Notes: generated by a model not told the origin, from the sequence alone. DNA of 41,141 nucleotides from an uncultured Planctomycetota bacterium (GCA_900696535.1 CAADGM010000056.1:1-41141), one strand, 5' to 3'. Numbered from the stretch's first letter, positions 10,677 through 18,790 are shown. Numbers and translations: made by a program.

Positions 10677-11378
10677 CTACTTCTCCGACGTGTGCACGCT
10701 CTTGGTCGGTGTCTGCACGTCCTGCGTCATCACGCACTTGCCGGCCTTCTTGCAGGCTTCGCTGCCGCAGCACTTGCCGTCGCCCTTGCCATCGGCGCAG
10801 CAAGCCATCTGGCACTTGCCTGTTTCACGGCACTTCGGGTTGCTGCACTTCTTTGGATCGCCTCCGCACTTGCAGCCCGAACACGCGCAGTCCTTCGCTG
10901 ACAGGCCCTTGATCTCCATGTACGTCGCCGCGACCTTCGCGACCTTCATCCCCCCCGCGTACTTGGCCATCTGGTCCTTGGACGCGCCCTTCTGCTCGAG
11001 GTAGTGCTTGGCCGCATCCGCAGGCATGTCGTACATCGACAGCGTGCCTTCAACGACCGCGTGCTTGCCCTTGGCCGTGGCCGGCAGCATGCACTTGCCG
11101 TTCGCACACGCACAGGCCACAAGCACAAGCCGGTCCATGTCCGTCTCGTCAGCCTTGCCCGCGACCTCGAACCACGGCTCACCCGTGCACACGCCGGAAA
11201 TCACGCCCTTGACCCGCACCGGCTTGCCAGCCAGGTCTGCCGACTTCGCATGAACTTTCTCGGCCGACATCGCGGCGGGCGCATCGCTCATGGGTGTGCC
11301 GCACTTCATCGTGCCGGCGCAACCCGTCAGCACTGCCAGACTCACCACCACCGCCACGAGCACACTGATACGTCGCAT
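10677..11378 (-). CDS. DUF4920-like lipoprotein with cysteine-rich C-terminal tail
   Basis: A 233-residue predicted lipoprotein has signal peptide MRRISVLV...AVLTGC with lipobox Cys20. The middle (about 45-160) matches the DUF4920-like lipoprotein at 36522-37049: VRVKGVISGVCTGEPWFEV against VCVEGYITAVCPGSGCWIEL, and the following helix-rich stretch also aligns. The two are paralogues. Residues 164-215 form a tail with 13 cysteines in CxC, CC and CxxC spacings, resembling a metallothionein or metal-binding module. GAGGAG stands 9 nt before ATG 11378; ATG 11384 is also possible. A role in binding metal in the envelope is inference; the function is unknown. Confidence 0.75.
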   Translation of the reverse strand: MRRISVLVAVVVSLAVLTGCAGTMKCGTPMSDAPAAMSAEKVHAKSADLAGKPVRVKGVISGVCTGEPWFEVAGKADETDMDRLVLVACACANGKCMLPATAKGKHAVVEGTLSMYDMPADAAKHYLEQKGASKDQMAKYAGGMKVAKVAATYMEIKGLSAKDCACSGCKCGGDPKKCSNPKCRETGKCQMACCADGKGDGKCCGSEACKKAGKCVMTQDVQTPTKSVHTSEK

Positions 11379-11509
11379 GGACATGTTCTCCTCACCGCGA
11401 ACCATCCGCCGCTCGGCCGCCCAATCCGCGCGAATCGGGCCCGGCGAAGGCGGGAAGTCTACAACTGCGTGCCAGCGCCCGCCAGATCGCGACGGCGTGA
11501 ACTCGCGTC

Positions 11510-11660
11510 CGACAGCCCGAATTGGCGTGCTGCCCAGCCCGTGGGAGCGCTCGGCAACCCGAAGGGGCGTACAGCGCAGCGAAAGCGAGCGCTCGGCAAC
11601 TCAAAGTGGCACACCGCGCAGCCCAAGGGAGTGCTCGGCAGCCCGAAGGGCTGTTCGATA
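11510..11660. repeat. Degenerate tandem repeat, 21/42-bp period
   Basis: GCTCGGCAACCCGAAGGGG, GCTCGGCAACTCAAAGTGG and GCTCGGCAGCCCGAAGGGC recur 42 bp apart. Related CAGCCCGTGGGA, CAGCGAAAGCGA and CAGCCCAAGGGA segments lie between, giving an underlying 21-bp period. A frame through it would encode a 7-residue repeat, but no convincing gene uses it. It lies between the pilT-type gene and the upstream end of the lipoprotein gene. Confidence 0.6.
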
Positions 11661-11664
11661 GTAG

Positions 11665-11702
11665 CCGTGGGCTAGTCCGCCGCAGGCGGACGCCGCCCAC
11701 GG
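11665..11702. repeat. REP-like palindrome
   Basis: Outer arms CCGTGGGC (11665-11672) and GCCCACGG (11695-11702) enclose inner arms TCCGCC and GGCGGA with a GCA loop, giving a two-part imperfect hairpin. It is followed by a second hairpin at 11724-11740. Together they may end transcription of the seven-gene operon. Confidence 0.6.
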
Positions 11703-11779: not shown

Positions 11780-12832
11780 CTAAGCGCTCCGCTGGCGGAA
11801 GGCCTGTGGATCGCGCGCGATCGTGATGGCCGTGTCGTACGATATGTCCCCCTTCTGGTAGAGCTCCAGGAGCGCCTGGTCCATCGTGACCATGCCATAC
11901 TTGCGGCCGGCCTGGAGCTCGCTGTAGAGCTTGTGCACGGTGTTCTCGCGGATGTTGTGCCGCACGCCCCCCGTGCCCACCAGGACTTCGCAGCACAGCA
12001 CGCGGCGACGACTGGCCGCGTCCGGCAGCAGCACCTGCGAGATCACCGCCTGGAGCACGTTGGCCAGCATCAGCCGCACCTCGAGCTGCTGCGCCGCCGG
12101 AAAAGCGGAAATCACCCGCTGCACCGATTGCGTCGCGTCTGGCGTATGCAGCGTGCCGATCACGAGGTGGCCCGTCTCGGCGGCCAGCAGCGCCGTGTAG
12201 ATCGACTCCCGGTCGCGCAGCTCGCCGATGCCGATCACATCAGGGTCCTGGCGCAGCGCGTGCAGCAGCGCGCCGCGGAACGAGCGCACATCGGTCAGCA
12301 CCTCCTGCTGAATCACCAGGGCCCGCTTGTGGACGTGCGTGTACTCGATCGGGTCCTCGATCGTGATGATCTTCTTGCGAGACTCGGCGTTGATCCGGTC
12401 GATCAGGTAGTGGAACGTCGTCGTCTTGCCCACGCCTGTCGGGCCCGTCAGCAGCACCAGGCCGTTCGGACGGCGGGCAAGCTCATCCACCAGCGGCGGC
12501 AGCCGCAACTCCTCACGCGTGCGAATGGCCGGCTCGCTCAGCCGGATGGACAGCTCCGGATGACCGTTCCGGAAGTAGACGGTCACACGAGCCCGCTCGC
12601 GGTCGTCGCTGCTCAGTGAGAAACAGAGCTGCCAGCGCCGTTCGAGCCGCGCCCGCTGGCTCTCGTTGAGGCATGAGAAGATCATCTCGCGGAGCTGCTC
12701 CGCGGTCATCGCCTCGCCCTTGGCCGTCACCACATCGCCGTCGATCCGCAGCAGCGGCGGCAGGCCGACCACGACGTGAATGTCGCTCGCGCCGTGCTTG
12801 CGGCCGGCCTGGAGCAGCGTCTTCAGCGTCAT
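11780..12832 (-). CDS. PilT-family ATPase, last gene of the seven-gene operon
   Basis: A 350-residue hexameric secretion-type ATPase of the PilT/PilU family. Domain order is an N-terminal PAS-like domain (DIHVVVGLPPLLRIDG) and a RecA-like core. Walker A is GPTGVGKT (130-137), the Asp box ITIEDPIEYTH (157-166), Walker B DPDVIGIGE (196-204) and the His box GHLVIGTLHT (221-230). A C-terminal IRENTVHKLY...GMVTMDQAL segment matches the AIRNLIRE region of PilT. All catalytic residues are present, so it should be active. The start overlaps the stop of the TPR gene by 4 nt (ATGA). Family members drive pilus retraction, but no pilin or pilus assembly gene is nearby. A role serving the unknown operon is inferred. 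Confidence 0.9.
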   Translation of the reverse strand: MTLKTLLQAGRKHGASDIHVVVGLPPLLRIDGDVVTAKGEAMTAEQLREMIFSCLNESQRARLERRWQLCFSLSSDDRERARVTVYFRNGHPELSIRLSEPAIRTREELRLPPLVDELARRPNGLVLLTGPTGVGKTTTFHYLIDRINAESRKKIITIEDPIEYTHVHKRALVIQQEVLTDVRSFRGALLHALRQDPDVIGIGELRDRESIYTALLAAETGHLVIGTLHTPDATQSVQRVISAFPAAQQLEVRLMLANVLQAVISQVLLPDAASRRRVLCCEVLVGTGGVRHNIRENTVHKLYSELQAGRKYGMVTMDQALLELYQKGDISYDTAITIARDPQAFRQRSA

Positions 12833-13617
12833 GACCGCCGCCTCCAGCCCAGGAGACGCCGCAGAAGCCCGCCAAGCACCGAGCTGCGCTCCAGCGCATC
12901 GAGTGCCGAACGCGGCTCGGTCCATTCCGGCGCCAGCTCCCCCGCATGGCCGAAACTGTCCCGCGCGGCTGAGGCCAGCCCGAGCTGCACCTGGCACTGG
13001 CCCAGGAGCAGCCAGGGGTAGCCGTGTTCGGGCTGAAGCGTGACGGCCTGCTTCACGTAGCGAACGGCGGCGGCGAAGCGTCGGTAGTGCTGGAGCACGC
13101 GGGCGACGACAACGTGGTCGAACCAGTCGGCCGCCGGGCTTTGCACCGCCTTCTCGAAGCAGGACTCGGCCAGGCGCTGCCCCGCGGCGAGGAGCACCTC
13201 GCCACGGACGACCCAGCGCCAGGGCGAATCGCCGGCGGACTGCATGGCGTTGTCGCTCAGCCGGCGGGCGGTCTTGAGGTCGCGCAGGCGGGCAACGGCC
13301 TGCGCCTCGGCCGCCAGCAGATCACCGTGGTTGCGGAACAACTGAAGGGCCTTCTCGCTCCACACGCGGGCCTCGTGGCACTCGTCGAGCTGAACCAGCA
13401 TCTGCACCTGTCCAACCCAGGCGACAACCAGCGCGCGGTCCTCTCCCAGCGCCCGCGTGTAGAGCCGCAGGGCCTCCTCGAAGCGGCCCCACTCGTCCGC
13501 CCGCCGCGCCCGCGCTAACAGCGTGGCGGGCAGGTCCTGCCCGGCGCGCACCTGCTCCGTCGCGCGCTGCTCCGCGCGGGGCGACTCGAACTCCAGGTTC
13601 GTGAACCGCTTCGACAT
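12829..13617 (-). CDS. TPR-repeat protein
   Basis: A 262-residue protein without a signal peptide or membrane segment. Helix-turn-helix repeats with TPR spacing cover residues about 28-245, for example ADEWGRFEEALRLYTRALGED and FAAAVRYVKQAVTLQPEHGYPWLLLGQCQVQLGLASAARDSF. TPR proteins act as scaffolds. The gene starts 7 nt after the S26-like gene and overlaps the PilT-like gene by 4 nt, so tight translational coupling is likely. It may link the membrane protein upstream with the ATPase downstream, which is inference. The C-terminus ends in a basic patch (LLRRLLGWRRRS). Confidence 0.8.
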   Translation of the reverse strand: MSKRFTNLEFESPRAEQRATEQVRAGQDLPATLLARARRADEWGRFEEALRLYTRALGEDRALVVAWVGQVQMLVQLDECHEARVWSEKALQLFRNHGDLLAAEAQAVARLRDLKTARRLSDNAMQSAGDSPWRWVVRGEVLLAAGQRLAESCFEKAVQSPAADWFDHVVVARVLQHYRRFAAAVRYVKQAVTLQPEHGYPWLLLGQCQVQLGLASAARDSFGHAGELAPEWTEPRSALDALERSSVLGGLLRRLLGWRRRS

Positions 13618-13624
13618 CTATGCC

Positions 13625-14650
13625 TTACTCCACCGCCCCGAATCGGGACCACGGCCGGAGACGCCAGAACACGCGACCGACGATCTCGTGCCGCGCAACT
13701 CGGCACGCGTCGAGCAGACCACCGCGCACCTCGTTCTCGTGTCCACTGATCGCACCGAGGTACTGGCTCGCCCGACTTGGGAAGACGACGAACTCGTCCG
13801 GGCCCAGTTGCCATTCGAGATCGATCGGCCAGGTCACGTCCGACAGGGGTCGCCCCCGACCCTGCGGGACCTGGCCGTTAACCTTCAGGCCGCCGTAGTG
13901 AAAGACCACGACGTCGCGGGGGATGCCCACGATGCGGTCGACCACGTGTCCCGCCCTGACCAGGACTGGGCCCGGACGCGAGGGCCGCACCTCACGAAAC
14001 ACGAGGTCGCCCCGCTCCAGCGGGCCGCGCCGCAGCCACGGTCCCTCGATCAACAGAACATCGTTCGTACCCGCCTCGAACGGAGCGTCGAGCGAGCCGA
14101 CGGGCATCACCACGGCAAACCGCGACACCAAGCCCGCCAGCGGCCGGTACGCGGCCAGGTACAACCCCACGAATGCGACCAGGCCGAAGAGAAGTCGCGT
14201 CAGCGCTCCCGTGTAGTTCAGGTTGCTGCCGAACAGGTGAAGCACGGCGCTGGCGTGCACGCTGATTGCCAGCCACCACCACAGCGCCCCGGCACCCGAG
14301 CCGACCACGGCCACACTCGCGATCAGAAGCCCTGTCCACGCAGACAGAAACAGGGCGCCGGCCAGCCACTGCCTTATTCGAAGCTGCCCGAGCCCCGGCA
14401 CGACCGAGCACGCCAGCGCCGCCCACGGAAGGGGCTCCGGCGCCAGCCGGCGCACGGCCCCCACAATCCACCCCAGATCCGGCACAGGCACGCCCAGCCC
14501 GTTCCACGCGCGGCTGAGGCGCGTCCGCAGCCGCAGGCGCGAGGCCCGCGGCGGCGCAATGGCGACGCTGCCAAGCACAAGCGGGCTGGCGCATCGCGCA
14601 CATGTCCTGAGGCCGGGGAGGTTCTCGAAGTGACACGCCGCGCACTGCAT
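13625..14650 (-). CDS. Zinc-ribbon membrane protein with signal-peptidase-like (S26) domain, probably inactive
   Basis: This 341-residue protein starts with a zinc ribbon (C3, C6, C17, C20). Hydrophobic helices follow from about 72 to 172, including VVPGLGQLRIRQWLAGALFL, a TM2/DUF5683-like pattern. The C-terminal domain from about 183 has the type I signal peptidase fold: GSLDAPFEAG (box B, Ser186), ERGDLVF (box C), VDRIVGIPRDV (box D) and a GGLKVNGQ strand. In box D the catalytic Lys of the usual KRVVGLPGD is Asp238, and the box E motif GDNRxxSxDSR is not recognisable. Catalysis as a normal Ser-Lys signal peptidase is therefore unlikely. It may bind rather than cut exported peptides. It sits between the DUF2997 and TPR genes in the operon. 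Confidence 0.82.
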   Translation of the reverse strand: MQCAACHFENLPGLRTCARCASPLVLGSVAIAPPRASRLRLRTRLSRAWNGLGVPVPDLGWIVGAVRRLAPEPLPWAALACSVVPGLGQLRIRQWLAGALFLSAWTGLLIASVAVVGSGAGALWWWLAISVHASAVLHLFGSNLNYTGALTRLLFGLVAFVGLYLAAYRPLAGLVSRFAVVMPVGSLDAPFEAGTNDVLLIEGPWLRRGPLERGDLVFREVRPSRPGPVLVRAGHVVDRIVGIPRDVVVFHYGGLKVNGQVPQGRGRPLSDVTWPIDLEWQLGPDEFVVFPSRASQYLGAISGHENEVRGGLLDACRVARHEIVGRVFWRLRPWSRFGAVE

Positions 14651-14671
14651 TGTCAGTCGCTCCGGAGCGGG

Positions 14672-14887
14672 TCAGCCATCCGCGCGGCGCTGGTGAAGCT
14701 CGGTGTTGAAGCGCACCTGCTGATCGGGTTCGTAGTACTCGCGCGTCAGGCTTCGCCGCACCTCGTGGCCGACGAGTTCCTTCAGCAGTTCCGCGTACTT
14801 GAGACAACGCGGCCCCTTGGCACCCTTGATTTCCACCATGACCTGGCCGCTTGCGCTGATCGTGATAAGCAGTTCGGCGTGGTCCAT
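14672..14887 (-). CDS. DUF2997-family small protein
   Basis: A 71-residue protein reads ELLITISASGQVMVEIKGAKG, then CLKYAELLKELVG, a pattern I recognise as DUF2997. Family members carry a short beta-hairpin domain and are found next to DUF1257 and Ycf46-type ATPase genes in cyanobacteria and planctomycetes. There is no membrane segment. The single Cys in GPRCLKYAELL is part of the family pattern. It is 19 nt downstream of the DUF1257 gene. Its function is not known. Confidence 0.8.
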   Translation of the reverse strand: MDHAELLITISASGQVMVEIKGAKGPRCLKYAELLKELVGHEVRRSLTREYYEPDQQVRFNTELHQRRADG

Positions 14888-14906
14888 CTGCGTGCCTCCG
14901 AGCGGC

Positions 14907-15356
14907 TCAGAGCCGTATGTGCACCCGCACCGAGTCGTCAGCCAGGCGCTCCTGCTGCACGATCTCGCCGTCGCGGCTCTTCAGCTCGGTGAGCAGCTTG
15001 TGGTAGATGAACTGCTGCACGATGCGGCCGGCCACGTCGTCGGCCATGCGCTGCAACCCGCGCTTCGAGTGGCGCGTGCCGCGGGCGCACACGCGGCAGC
15101 GACCCTGCGCGTCCTGGCGCACCTCGATGGTCACGTCGCCGCGCTGAAGCTCGATCGTCTCGTTCGTGGCCAGCTCGGACCCGACCACCTCGGACTCGGC
15201 GATCTCCGCTTCGGCGAAGTTCTCAACCTTCTCGGGCCGACGCCCGGCCTGCGGCCGGACCGCGTAGCCCAGCGCCGCCGCTGCGGCCACCGCGGCCGCC
15301 GACACCGCCGGCCAGGACGCAATGACGATCGGCGTCAGCACGACAACTGCACTCAC
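14907..15356 (-). CDS. DUF1257 (Ycf35-like) protein
   Basis: A 149-residue protein starts at GTG 15356, overlapping the ATPase stop by 3 nt. The C-terminal half (RIVQQFIYHKLLTELKSR, then DDSVRVHIRL) matches the DUF1257/Ycf35 C-terminal pattern in which a conserved YHK precedes an acidic strand. The N-terminus PIVIASWPAVSAAAVAAAAA is Ala-rich and more divergent than usual for the family. A CxxC pair (CRVC) lies near residue 98. In plastids and cyanobacteria Ycf35 is conserved without a settled function. Assignment rests on the C-terminus and on its neighbours. Confidence 0.7.
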   Translation of the reverse strand: MSAVVVLTPIVIASWPAVSAAAVAAAAALGYAVRPQAGRRPEKVENFAEAEIAESEVVGSELATNETIELQRGDVTIEVRQDAQGRCRVCARGTRHSKRGLQRMADDVAGRIVQQFIYHKLLTELKSRDGEIVQQERLADDSVRVHIRL

Positions 15357-16966
15357 GGGACACTTCCAATCTCCTGGGGCTGGGCGTCGATCTCGAGCTT
15401 GCGGCGTGTCGAGGGCACGTCGCGTAGGTCGCGCCGCGCGGCCGGCCGCGCCCGGCCCTGGGCCCAGGTTCGCAGGGCGGTGATTTCCTCGGCCATCGTT
15501 CTGGACAGGGGCACGGTCGCCTGAAGGGCCGCCAGGATGTCGCCGGTGACGATGTCGCGCCCCAGCGGGAACGCGTCGTACAGCGCACTGACCACGGCCT
15601 CCTCGATCTCGGCACCGCTGAAGCCGTCGCTCGCCTCGGCCAGCCCCTCGAGGTCGAACTGCTCGACGCGGCGACCGCGCTTGGCCAGGTGAATCTCGAA
15701 GATTCGCCGGCGCTCCGGCGCGCTCGGCAGGTCGACAAAGAAGATCTCGTCGAGGCGCCCCTTGCGGAGCAGCTCGGGCGGGAGCTGCGAGATGTTGTTG
15801 GCGGTGGCCAGCACGAAGACCGGCTTCTGCTTCTCGCTCAGCCAGGTGAGAAACGTGCTCATCACGCGGGCGGTCGTGCCGCCGTCCGTGCCGCCGGAGG
15901 CCTGCGAGCCGCTCATCGCCTTGTCGATCTCGTCCACCCACAGCACGACGGGTGAGATGCTCTCGGCCACGCCGATCGCCCGACGGATGTTCTCCTCGGA
16001 CGAGCCGACCAGACTCGAGAACATGCGGCCCACGTCGAAGCGGAGCAGGGGCATGTTCCAGGCGCTGGCCACCGCCTTCGCGCACAGGCTCTTGCCGCAG
16101 CCCTGCACACCCACGAGCAGCACGCCCTTCGGCGCCGGCAGGCCGTACTCCCGCGCGGCCTGCGAGAAGGCCGCGGCGCGCTTGGTCAGCCAGCCCTTGA
16201 GCTCGTCCAGCCCGCCGGTGTCCTCCATGACCGCCTGCGACTCGTAGTAGTCAAGCAGCCCGCTCTTGCGGATGATCTGCCGCTTCTCCGAGAAAACCGT
16301 CGACACGTCGGCGGCGGACAGATTCCCGTCGCTGATGATGGTCTTGGCGAAGACGTTCTCGGCTTCCTGAAGGGTCAGCCCAAGCGCCGCCTGGATCAGC
16401 CGCTCGCGGTCGCGCGGACCGAGCTCGATCCTGATGTTCGTGGCCGCGGCGACATCCTCGCAGATGCGGTGGAGCAGCAGGTCCACCTCGTCCGTTCCGG
16501 GCAACGGGTAGTCAATGACGCACAGGTCCTTCTCCAGCTCCCGGGCGACGTCGAGAACGGGCGCCGTGATCACGATGGTCTTGTAGCTGTCGGACAGCGC
16601 CTGCGCGACCTCGCGAAGCCGCCGAATCACGCCCACGTTGCAGTCCCGCGGGCGGATGAACATGTGGAAGTCCTTCAGCAGGTAGATCGCGGGCTCCTTC
16701 TGCTCGATCACCGCGGACAGCGCCTCGACGGGGTCAGACAGCCCCTTGCCCCGGGGCCCACCGGCGCCGTCGCCAGCGCGCAACAAGCCAGTGGTGACCG
16801 ACCACGTATAGAGCTGCTTGTTGCGGCGTTCGGCCAGCGCGACCAGCCGCTGCTCGACGCGGCGCTCCTCCCACGTGACCACGTAGATCACCGCGTACCG
16901 CGCGCGGATGAGCGTCTCGAGCTCGTCGATGGGGGCCGCCGTACGACTCCTGGCCGGCTCACTCAC
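15353..16966 (-). CDS. Ycf46-like AAA+ ATPase
   Basis: A 537-residue cytoplasmic ATPase. The N-terminal region (about 13-180) has the Ycf46 pattern [20 protein letters not shown] and [12 protein letters not shown]. It looks like a second, degenerate P-loop-like fold. The AAA module has Walker A GVQGCGKS (286-293), Walker B VLWVDEID (DE 345-346), sensor 1 ATAN (387-390), an Arg region [10 protein letters not shown] (401-410) and sensor 2 GFSGAEIEE (448-456). All catalytic parts are intact. It starts at GTG 16966, overlapping the radical SAM gene by 8 nt, and its stop overlaps the DUF1257 start. Ycf46 homologues in cyanobacteria are linked to carbon use, but its substrate here is unknown. Confidence 0.9.
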
Positions 16967-18032
16967 AATGGGGCACCTCCGCGCACGCCTGGACGTCGGC
17001 CCGGGCTGCCAGCACCGGGTCGCCCGGCGCCAGCGCGTGCAGAATCGGCAGCAGCGACGCGCTCAGGTCGTGGCAATAGATGCGGCCGTCGCGTCCGATC
17101 GTCACGCGGGCCGTGCCGACCTCGGCGCCGGTCCCCCCCGCGACCGGCGCCGAGCGATCCAGCGTGGGCGTCTGCCAGACGAGGCGGCTGTCGCGCAGCA
17201 GCGCGATCGCGCGGGCCACGTCGCGACGCGTGTTCAACCGGCCCAGCTCGGGGTCCACCGACGCCGGCCCCACCGGCACGTATCCGGGATAGAGCTGGAA
17301 GCGGAGCCCGGGCAGCGCATCCGAGAGCCAGCGCACGATGGGCCGCAGGCAGCACTCCACGTGCCCGGGCAGCAGCACGTGACGCACGATCACCGCGGCG
17401 CTCCGCGTGGCCTGGAGCAGGTTCGCGCGAGCCACGCGGGTGTAGTCCGGGATGCGGGCAATGCGCGCCGCGCACGCGTCCTGCCCGAACTTCAGGTCCG
17501 CCAGGTACCAGCCCACCACGCCGCTCAGCAGGTCCAACACCACCGGCGACATGTACAAGTTCGTGTTGATGGCCAGCGGCAGGCGGTTGTCGGTCGCCTG
17601 CGCCAGCGCGAGAAGCGTGTGGACGTGCAGCGTCGGCTCGCCGCCCAGAACGCTGATGCATTGGGCTCCCCGCGTCACAGCACGCTGGAGCGCCTCGGCC
17701 AGCGCGGCCGGTACAACCAACTCACCCGCCCCGGGATCGAAGGCCTGCGGCGCCTCGTCGCAGAAGCTGCACCGGAAGCTGCACCCGCCCAGGAAGACGC
17801 GGTACGCGGGGACCAGCTCCGGCTCCTCGTTGTAGCTCAGGTAGTGCTTGTAGACGCGGCTCTCCGCGCTCAGGCCGCACTTGCCCCGCTGGCCGGCGAC
17901 GCGGTCCACGCCGCACCGCCACGCGCACAGGCGACAGTCGCGCAGCATCCGCCGGGCCGCGAGCCTTCGGCGCTCCAGCGATTGGGCCGTCGGCCGCGCG
18001 GGGTCGAGGGGCTGGCTGTGCGCTTGGGGCAT
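16959..18032 (-). CDS. Radical SAM protein, PflA-like subgroup with extra N-terminal Cys cluster
   Basis: A 357-residue radical SAM enzyme. The 4Fe-4S/SAM motif is GGCSFRCSFC (C84, C88, C91). A second Cys set, C33, C36, C40 and C52 (CRLCAWRCGVDR and KCG), precedes it. This matches a PflA-like family of unassigned activase-type proteins. SAM-binding GGEP (from about residue 145) and a TIM-barrel core follow. ATG 18032 is chosen because GGAG stands 8 nt upstream; ATG 18038 is also possible. It is the first gene of the seven-gene operon. No glycyl radical enzyme or other obvious substrate is encoded nearby. Confidence 0.88.
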   Translation of the reverse strand: MPQAHSQPLDPARPTAQSLERRRLAARRMLRDCRLCAWRCGVDRVAGQRGKCGLSAESRVYKHYLSYNEEPELVPAYRVFLGGCSFRCSFCDEAPQAFDPGAGELVVPAALAEALQRAVTRGAQCISVLGGEPTLHVHTLLALAQATDNRLPLAINTNLYMSPVVLDLLSGVVGWYLADLKFGQDACAARIARIPDYTRVARANLLQATRSAAVIVRHVLLPGHVECCLRPIVRWLSDALPGLRFQLYPGYVPVGPASVDPELGRLNTRRDVARAIALLRDSRLVWQTPTLDRSAPVAGGTGAEVGTARVTIGRDGRIYCHDLSASLLPILHALAPGDPVLAARADVQACAEVPHCE

Positions 18033-18120: not shown

Positions 18121-18187
18121 CACTACGCGAAGGGCTGGGGTCGCTCGCAACGTGTCGGCGCCAGAGTCCGGAATGTCGAGGCCGACC

Positions 18188-18790
18188 ATGCCGTCCGACG
18201 CCGAATCCCGAGATGCCCGGGGGCTCATGCCGCTGGTCTACGACGAGCTGCGCGGTGTCGCGGAGCGGTTCTTGCGCCGTCAGCCGGCCGGCTTCACGCT
18301 CCGCCCAACCGAGCTGGTCCACGAGGCGTGCCTGCACCTGATGCAGCACGGTCACGCGGACTGGACGAGCACGGGGCACTTCCGCGCCATCGCCACGCAC
18401 AAGCTCTGGCAGATTGTGGTCGACCAGATCCGCCGGCGCTGCGCCGCGAAGCGCGGCGGCGCCCTCGCCCGCGACGTGGCCGAGCCGCAGGCCGGCACGG
18501 CTCCGCCGCCGCCGGCCGCGCCGCGTCGGCACGTCTCCCCCGAACAGGTGACCGTGGAGTGGCGCGATCGGGACGTGGACCTGCTCGACCTGGCCGACGC
18601 ACTGGCCGGATTGGCGGACGAGAGCCGACGGCTGCATGACGTGGTCATGCTGCACTGGTTCGGCGGCCTGACGCATGCCGAGGTCGCCGCGCACCTGGGC
18701 GTCAGCCCGAGTACCGCCGAGAAGGACTTCCGCTACGCGCTGGCGTGGCTGCGCCGGCGCATGGAGTCGGAGACGCCGCATCGCGACTAG
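18188..18790 (+). CDS. ECF-type RNA polymerase sigma factor (planctomycete type)
   Basis: A 200-residue sigma factor. Region 2 runs over about 14-90 (LMPLVYDELRGVAERFLRRQ, then LRPTELVHEACLHLM). Region 4 covers about 140-195 with the helix-turn-helix HAEVAAHLGVSPSTAEKDF. The two are joined by a Pro-rich linker. The pattern matches the Sigma70_ECF family, abundant in planctomycetes and often paired with Ser/Thr kinases. ATG 18188 is chosen because GAGG stands 6 nt upstream. An earlier ATG (18173) and a GTG (18152) have weaker sites. The Ser/Thr kinase gene follows after 7 nt, with no anti-sigma factor gene, so control by phosphorylation is likely. Confidence 0.9.
   Translation: MPSDAESRDARGLMPLVYDELRGVAERFLRRQPAGFTLRPTELVHEACLHLMQHGHADWTSTGHFRAIATHKLWQIVVDQIRRRCAAKRGGALARDVAEPQAGTAPPPPAAPRRHVSPEQVTVEWRDRDVDLLDLADALAGLADESRRLHDVVMLHWFGGLTHAEVAAHLGVSPSTAEKDFRYALAWLRRRMESETPHRD

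Follow-up and report, generated by a model that had tools for sequence, protein, structure and literature searches.

We describe a conserved operon in a 41,141-nucleotide stretch of DNA from an uncultured Planctomycetota bacterium (GCA_900696535.1, CAADGM010000056.1:1-41141; "the window" hereafter means this whole stretch). Seven intact, co-directional open reading frames (ORFs) on the minus strand at positions 11780-18032 encode a radical SAM enzyme (rSAM), an AAA+ ATPase, a DUF1257-like protein, a DUF2997 protein, a membrane protein related to the S26 signal peptidases, a TPR protein, and a PilT-family ATPase. The products very probably act as one functional unit, because the genes keep the same order, the pieces of split operons are retained, and the distances among the proteins are correlated. 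The core set is really eight genes, often nine. The AAA+ ATPase, TPR protein, and PilT form a core trio that stays together, and the rSAM, a small protein designated SM, DUF1257, DUF2997, and the pseudo-signal-peptidase make up a second unit that is lost as a block. Loss of the block is accompanied by loss of a short C-terminal tail on the AAA+ ATPase, and we judge the chances to be about even that the second unit docks on this tail or modifies it.

Results

Conservation was assessed in two samples. One comprised approximately 150 genomes of the class (the window's own added or included) that were not selected by operon genes. The S26-like gene is present in 7 of the 150, representing seven different families, and the same seven genomes also hold DUF2997 and an ATPase that shares at least 56% identity with that of the window, a perfect co-occurrence. 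All six of the other S26-bearing genomes have the seven genes in identical order and on the same strand. Across the phylum, the DUF1257-like family was found in 17 of 392 genomes, and in 14 of these 17 the coordinates place the gene beside the ATPase. For the wider sample, the ATPase alignment was used to scan GTDB species genomes, and the best 80 of 412 loci were kept; as it was chosen by ATPase likeness, it measures conservation around the ATPase and not prevalence. These best 80 loci are mostly from Planctomycetota and Verrucomicrobiota, with one Armatimonadetes metagenome-assembled genome (MAG) and a few MAGs otherwise labelled. All seven genes are present in 43 of the 53 Planctomycetota and Verrucomicrobiota loci that are well flanked (at least 2 kb upstream and at least 7 kb downstream), and the full eight-gene order is seen in 46 of 87 loci, many of the 87 being ended by contig edges. 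The operon also occurs in the complete genomes G209 and G229, whose ATPases share 88-89% identity with the ATPase of a Gimesia MAG; this suggests their genus, and Gimesia-like planctomycetes would be likely hosts for laboratory work. The gene order persists across phyla among proteins of low identity (minimum 14-54% by family), and the flanks are not kept. The distance matrices of the seven proteins correlate at 0.72-0.94 across 51 loci, in part because all of them track the species tree. The clustering is far beyond chance, and the order in the class relatives, the completeness of the well-flanked loci, and the joint loss of tail and block led us to reject a chance cluster. An initial annotation of the window had proposed conserved adjacency of the seven families as a check, and had set against its own reading the case in which only DUF1257, DUF2997, and the ATPase are stable and the other four genes vary freely; instead, all seven are kept together and in order.

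Fourteen incomplete-looking loci were traced into their genomes. Six are split operons (L026, L047, L059, L060, L070, and L072), in which the missing genes lie elsewhere in the genome, mostly as a second DUF1257-DUF2997-S26-TPR-PilT cluster, and two (L048 and L057) are partial loci. For the other six, all in verrucomicrobial genomes (L046, L052, L061, L069, L084, and L091), rSAM and DUF1257 were not found genome-wide. The S26 matches of these loci are weak and cover the peptidase domain only, SM is missing at the locus, and five of the six have no DUF2997; L084 has it only at two other places in the genome. All six keep the ATPase, the TPR protein, and, in the loci read, PilT. The distribution of block-bearing and block-lacking states on the ATPase tree requires five changes, and the block was lost in at least five independent events. 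Gaps in MAGs could mimic single absences; yet in five loci the ATPase and TPR genes are near neighbors with no block gene between them. The trio that stays together is that of ATPase, TPR protein, and PilT, rather than the ATPase, DUF1257, and DUF2997 that the initial annotation named as known neighbors.

The tail lost with the block has the consensus R-[KR]-[LIM]-E-[LFI], a basic-hydrophobic-E-hydrophobic pattern (for example, RRKLEM, RRKIEL, and RRMEL); the ATPase of the window ends in TRRKLEI and then 11 residues. Among the loci counted as block-bearing (meaning those not shown to lack the block, some of them truncated), 77 of 79 have an ATPase with the tail, compared to 0 of 6 block-lacking loci (Fisher test, 6e-8). 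Because the loci are akin to one another, it is safer to rely on the count of five independent events. In the two exceptions (L067 and L068), the tail is kept on the product of a rhomboid-fold gene. In 22 loci this gene lies directly against the start of rSAM. The family does not conserve the catalytic Ser and His, so an active rhomboid was rejected and we refer to the product as a pseudo-rhomboid. Verrucomicrobial pseudo-rhomboids end in the same tail as the ATPase, and a survey of 1267 ORF ends found the strict motif only in 71 ATPases and 12 pseudo-rhomboids, compared to 0.2 expected. The tail codons vary synonymously (GAA 41, GAG 33), and therefore selection acts on the protein; this variation and the median distance of 77 nt to the next gene led us to reject a ribosome-binding-site artefact. 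A genome-wide sorting tag was also rejected, as none of the 500 genes drawn from two genomes carries the strict motif. An "LEF" motif at the N-terminus of the TPR protein resembles the tail and was not counted, since it persists where the tail is lost. Of the block members, it is rSAM that accompanies the canonical tail in every system examined, including one in Treponema (see below), and in this small sample no other block member correlates with that tail as well.

Several related ATPases were seen in passing. G000:C156:33191-34690 (L099) and similar genes in many genomes of the class encode an ATPase that is approximately 40% identical, has no tail, and has no adjoining DUF1257 or DUF2997 in the loci read; class paralogues without these neighbors end in R[CY].[PC]AD or similar. 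A more distant relative, approximately 32% identical, is found on several hundred plasmids, mostly conjugative and mainly enterobacterial, and in mycobacteriophages.

The features of the operon in the window are given in Table 1. Spacings between consecutive ORFs, from rSAM to PilT, are -8, -4, 19, 21, 7, and -4 nt. The initial annotation had described seven genes on a single strand that overlap or nearly touch, and both ORF intactness and spacings bear this out, apart from the ATPase-DUF1257 overlap, which was given as 3 nt and measures 4 nt. Its family assignments hold by Pfam or NCBIfam scores over threshold for radical SAM, AAA, DUF2997, TPR, and T2SSE/PilT; the DUF1257 call has no Pfam match, and the S26 call is weak from the single sequence. 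Although all seven genes are present as described, it had missed SM as an eighth gene, the pseudo-rhomboid of the relatives, and the ATPase tail.

Table 1. Coordinates of the operon features in the window and the evidence for each
Feature	Position	Strand	Evidence or remark
Radical SAM enzyme, catalytic part, residues 1-307	17112..18032	-	PF04055, E 3e-13; alignment with invariant Cys
SM, eighth conserved protein, residues 308-357 of the rSAM ORF	16959..17111	-	Encoded by a gene of its own in most relatives
AAA+ ATPase, Cdc48-like clade, called Ycf46-like	15353..16966	-	PF00004, E 6e-30; alignment
ATPase tail motif RRKLEI, residues 521-526	15389..15406	-	Conserved tail; 11 more residues follow
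DUF1257-like (Ycf35-like) protein	14907..15356	-	Family profile match; hydrophobic N-terminus; conserved Cys90
DUF2997 protein	14672..14887	-	PF11211, E 5e-11, 42.7 bits (cut-off 24.1); invariant Cys28
Membrane pseudo-signal-peptidase	13625..14650	-	Signal-peptidase-I fold without catalytic residues; N-terminal zinc ribbon; approximately three predicted transmembrane helices
TPR protein, putative scaffold	12829..13617	-	TPR Pfam families, E down to 1e-10; family alignment
PilT-family ATPase, operon-specific clade	11780..12832	-	TIGR01420, 386 bits (cut-off 319)

Both signatures of the radical SAM superfamily, the CxxxCxxC cluster motif and the PF04055 domain, are present in the rSAM, and the family alignment shows an additional N-terminal four-Cys motif and a conserved PGHxxCC. 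Its top match in the PDB is pyruvate formate-lyase activating enzyme (E 3e-11). In most loci SM has its own small gene, placed between those of rSAM and the ATPase; in the window and a few relatives it is a C-terminal fusion to rSAM. The SM family is without conserved Cys. We do not claim SM as a paralogue of DUF2997, given that the match is limited to a 15-column hairpin (probability 75%).

The relationship of the membrane protein to S26 peptidases, weak from the single window sequence (E 0.056), is clear from the family profile against SpsB (E 9e-13), and its AlphaFold2 model (pLDDT 87.8) matches SpsB in Foldseek (E 1e-4, probability 1.0). Homology and fold thus place it in S26, and the catalytic Ser-Lys dyad is missing. 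The Lys is absent in all 56 S26-like members, in which the position is occupied by D, G, A, E, N, S, R, or V; the Ser region is not conserved; and an active signal peptidase was rejected on these residues. A PPR motif is present in 51 of the 56. These results uphold the earlier description of a degenerate signal-peptidase-like membrane protein, and the suggestion that the system is membrane linked is likewise supported.

The operon PilT has intact motor motifs in the alignment and belongs to the PilT/PilU family, as the description of an intact PilT-type motor had it. The window's genome contains seven PilT-family genes over the cut-off; the operon PilTs form one clade in the tree (100/99), separate from the other six paralogues. 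One further PilT-family gene lies on the same contig (window 25117-26328, minus strand) and is approximately 38% identical to the operon PilT. The AAA+ ATPase has intact Walker A and B, sensor 1, and arginine residues, as expected of a classic AAA ATPase, and the nearest solved structures to its ATPase domain are Cdc48/p97.

The window DUF1257-like protein had no match in Pfam and did not reach the PF06868 gathering score. The profile of the family has a match at E 1e-8 to a cyanobacterial plasmid protein annotated as DUF1257 (L177; PF06868, 104 bits), and hhalign against three other DUF1257 proteins aligned the C-terminal half only (probability 70%). A fold search with the model (pLDDT 72.7) gave nothing significant. 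One relative has a tandem pair of DUF1257-like genes (L013 5034-6005). No DUF1257 of the operon type was found in viral contigs and no DUF2997 in phage records, and on these grounds a viral origin of the operon was rejected.

Parts of the operon recur elsewhere. Cyanobacterial and plastid Ycf46, Ycf35 (DUF1257), and DUF2997 are probably the same three families as in the window operon, and cyanobacterial plasmids also carry ATPase, DUF1257, and DUF2997 together; the window ATPase is 44-45% identical to these plasmid ATPases. The cyanobacterial loci differ in that no PilT, TPR protein, pseudo-peptidase, or long rSAM adjoins, and their ATPase ends in VPLQLDIR[QS]. Four actinobacterial plasmids have the order ATPase, 141-amino-acid protein, DUF2997, helix-hairpin-helix membrane protein, rSAM. 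They share ATPase, DUF2997, and rSAM with the window, and a similar tail is present on both their ATPase and their membrane protein, whereas TPR, PilT, and pseudo-peptidase are missing and the rSAM is of a short Fer4_12 type. Assignment of the 141-amino-acid protein to DUF1257 was not supported. On a Treponema succinifaciens plasmid (L174 6345-8500), an rSAM adjoins a 50% identical ATPase ending in RKLEM, inside a VgrG/baseplate, contractile injection-like cluster in which no DUF1257 or DUF2997 was found. A planctomycete module resembles the window operon in having DUF1257, DUF2997, and a Ycf46-like ATPase, with an E1-like ThiF and DUF3150 in place of rSAM, S26, TPR, and PilT. Most other DUF2997 loci examined in the class are this module, consisting of ThiF, DUF1257, a related ATPase, DUF3150, and a sub-cut-off JAB-like match (L100, L101, L102-L104, L107, L108, L110, and L111, with the weak JAB match in L100). 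Some of its ATPases end in RKRQVEV or RRRRVTV.

Discussion

We tentatively propose, with less than even confidence, that the operon encodes a membrane-associated AAA+/PilT machine that remodels membrane or envelope client proteins. The pseudo-signal-peptidase, joined in many relatives by the pseudo-rhomboid, would bind client polypeptides of the membrane or envelope without cleaving them, and the AAA+ ring would pull or remodel the client. PilT would be a second, membrane-facing motor, coupled to the first by the TPR protein, with DUF1257, DUF2997, and SM as adaptors. The machine would be controlled or matured by the rSAM/adaptor unit, which would engage or modify the R-x-[LIM]-E-[LF] tail on the ATPase and its membrane partner. 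By analogy, the machine may work in the manner of Derlin-p97 or rhomboid-FtsH client handling, and we do not assign it to those systems. The precedents are the rhomboid-fold, catalytically dead Derlins that work with the AAA motor p97 in endoplasmic-reticulum-associated degradation (PMC8641752) and the rhomboid membrane protein YqgP, which handles clients with the AAA motor FtsH (PMC7231995). Compared with these systems, the window has no rhomboid and has in addition PilT, rSAM, and the pseudo-signal-peptidase. Neighboring chaperone genes fit a role in protein handling: six verrucomicrobial loci (L047, L052, L065, L069, L075, and L091) have genes for Lon and Hsp20 close to the operon or to what remains of it, and GrpE and Hsp70 lie beside one cyanobacterial plasmid relative.

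Several observations weigh against this machine. The pore loop of the ATPase, read from the alignment as SLVG, has no aromatic residue, which the proposal leaves unexplained; threading AAA+ motors usually carry an aromatic pore-loop residue. The window operon contains no pseudo-rhomboid, the component on which a likeness to Derlin-p97 would depend. The zinc ribbon is found in only 39 of 56 S26-like members. The chaperone neighbors are few and may come from one clade. For both substrate and activity, what we propose is inferred from sequence. Finally, PilT motors otherwise act on pili.

A different proposal is that the operon is an accessory of a type IV pilus or pseudopilus, in which a dedicated PilT retracts a particular pilus, the AAA+ ATPase and TPR protein regulate or recycle pilins, and the pseudo-signal-peptidase holds pilin-like substrates. 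We consider it unlikely. The operon PilT is a true PilT with intact motifs, and the core retains PilT and TPR in every genome examined. However, no pilin, PilB, PilC, or PilQ is recurrent among the conserved neighbors of the operon, a result that a remodelling machine also leaves unexplained. Moreover, the operon PilT stands in a clade apart from the six other paralogues of the genome, and a pilus accessory would not account for rSAM, DUF1257, DUF2997, or the tail. Compared with the PilT of type IV pili, the operon PilT is thus alike in family and motor motifs and different in clade and in gene neighborhood.

Alternatively, the operon could serve radical SAM peptide maturation, with the rSAM modifying SM, DUF2997, or the tails, and the membrane protein, PilT, and AAA+ ATPase handling or exporting the product. 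The rSAM adjoins a small protein, is lost together with the tail, and is present in all of the canonical-tail systems mentioned above, Treponema included; however, several loci have SM as a fusion to rSAM, which would be unusual for a cleaved precursor, SM lacks conserved Cys, and the operon is without a transporter or active peptidase. On balance, this seems improbable. A narrower possibility is that the rSAM (with SM) recognizes or covalently modifies R-x-[LIMF]-[ED]-[LFI]-COOH on the AAA+ motor and on one unrelated membrane partner. The tail-bearing partner is the pseudo-rhomboid in Verrucomicrobiota and the helix-hairpin-helix protein on actinobacterial plasmids. We put this forward as a speculative reading and consider it rather unlikely.

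An assembly chaperone for metal cofactors or redox proteins might be suggested by cyanobacteria, since DUF2997, ycf35, and the ferredoxin gene fed7 form a cluster in Synechocystis (PMC4284462). The invariant Cys in DUF2997 and the near-invariant Cys in the DUF1257-like family would suit such a function. No ferredoxin or metalloenzyme gene is recurrent beside the operon in Planctomycetota and Verrucomicrobiota, though, and the pseudo-proteases and PilT would go unexplained, so that we regard this explanation as very unlikely. That the genes are unrelated and only share inherited synteny is barely credible and was rejected: the loci do come from related phyla and some synteny is inherited, but order is kept at low identity without the flanks, presence within the class is patchy and the ATPase, S26-like, and DUF2997 genes co-occur perfectly, and the block has been lost repeatedly together with the tail. 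An anti-phage defence system was also rejected, as PADLOC matches (IetA and mad8) were confined to the ATPase domain and no specific defence component was found.

The component families are known and largely uncharacterized; the machine of eight to nine genes and its tail match no known system that we could find. Our literature search found no account of the gene combination, although coverage of subscription journals was poor and the absence is not proof. If the remodelling machine proposed here exists, planctomycetes and verrucomicrobia, which have unusual membranes, would possess their own dedicated two-motor machine built around dead proteases, and the long-unexplained Ycf35 (DUF1257), DUF2997, and Ycf46 would join a wider class of AAA+ adaptor modules. 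Should the rSAM act on the tail, this would represent a new peptide-tag code linking a radical enzyme to an unfoldase and a membrane receptor.

The surroundings of the operon include further genes. In the window, an ECF sigma gene (18152-18790, plus strand) is divergent to the operon, and in Verrucomicrobiota an ECF sigma factor gene lies upstream of rSAM on the same strand as the operon in approximately 19-24 loci. Just downstream of the operon, a gene at 10677-11405 (minus strand) encodes a Cys-rich protein with a lipoprotein-like N-terminus, for which the sole match is a weak one to DUF4920. The interval between the operon and this gene contains, at 11500-11700, degenerate short repeats rich in GC, recognized by eye as variants of 'ctcggcaacccgaaggg'.

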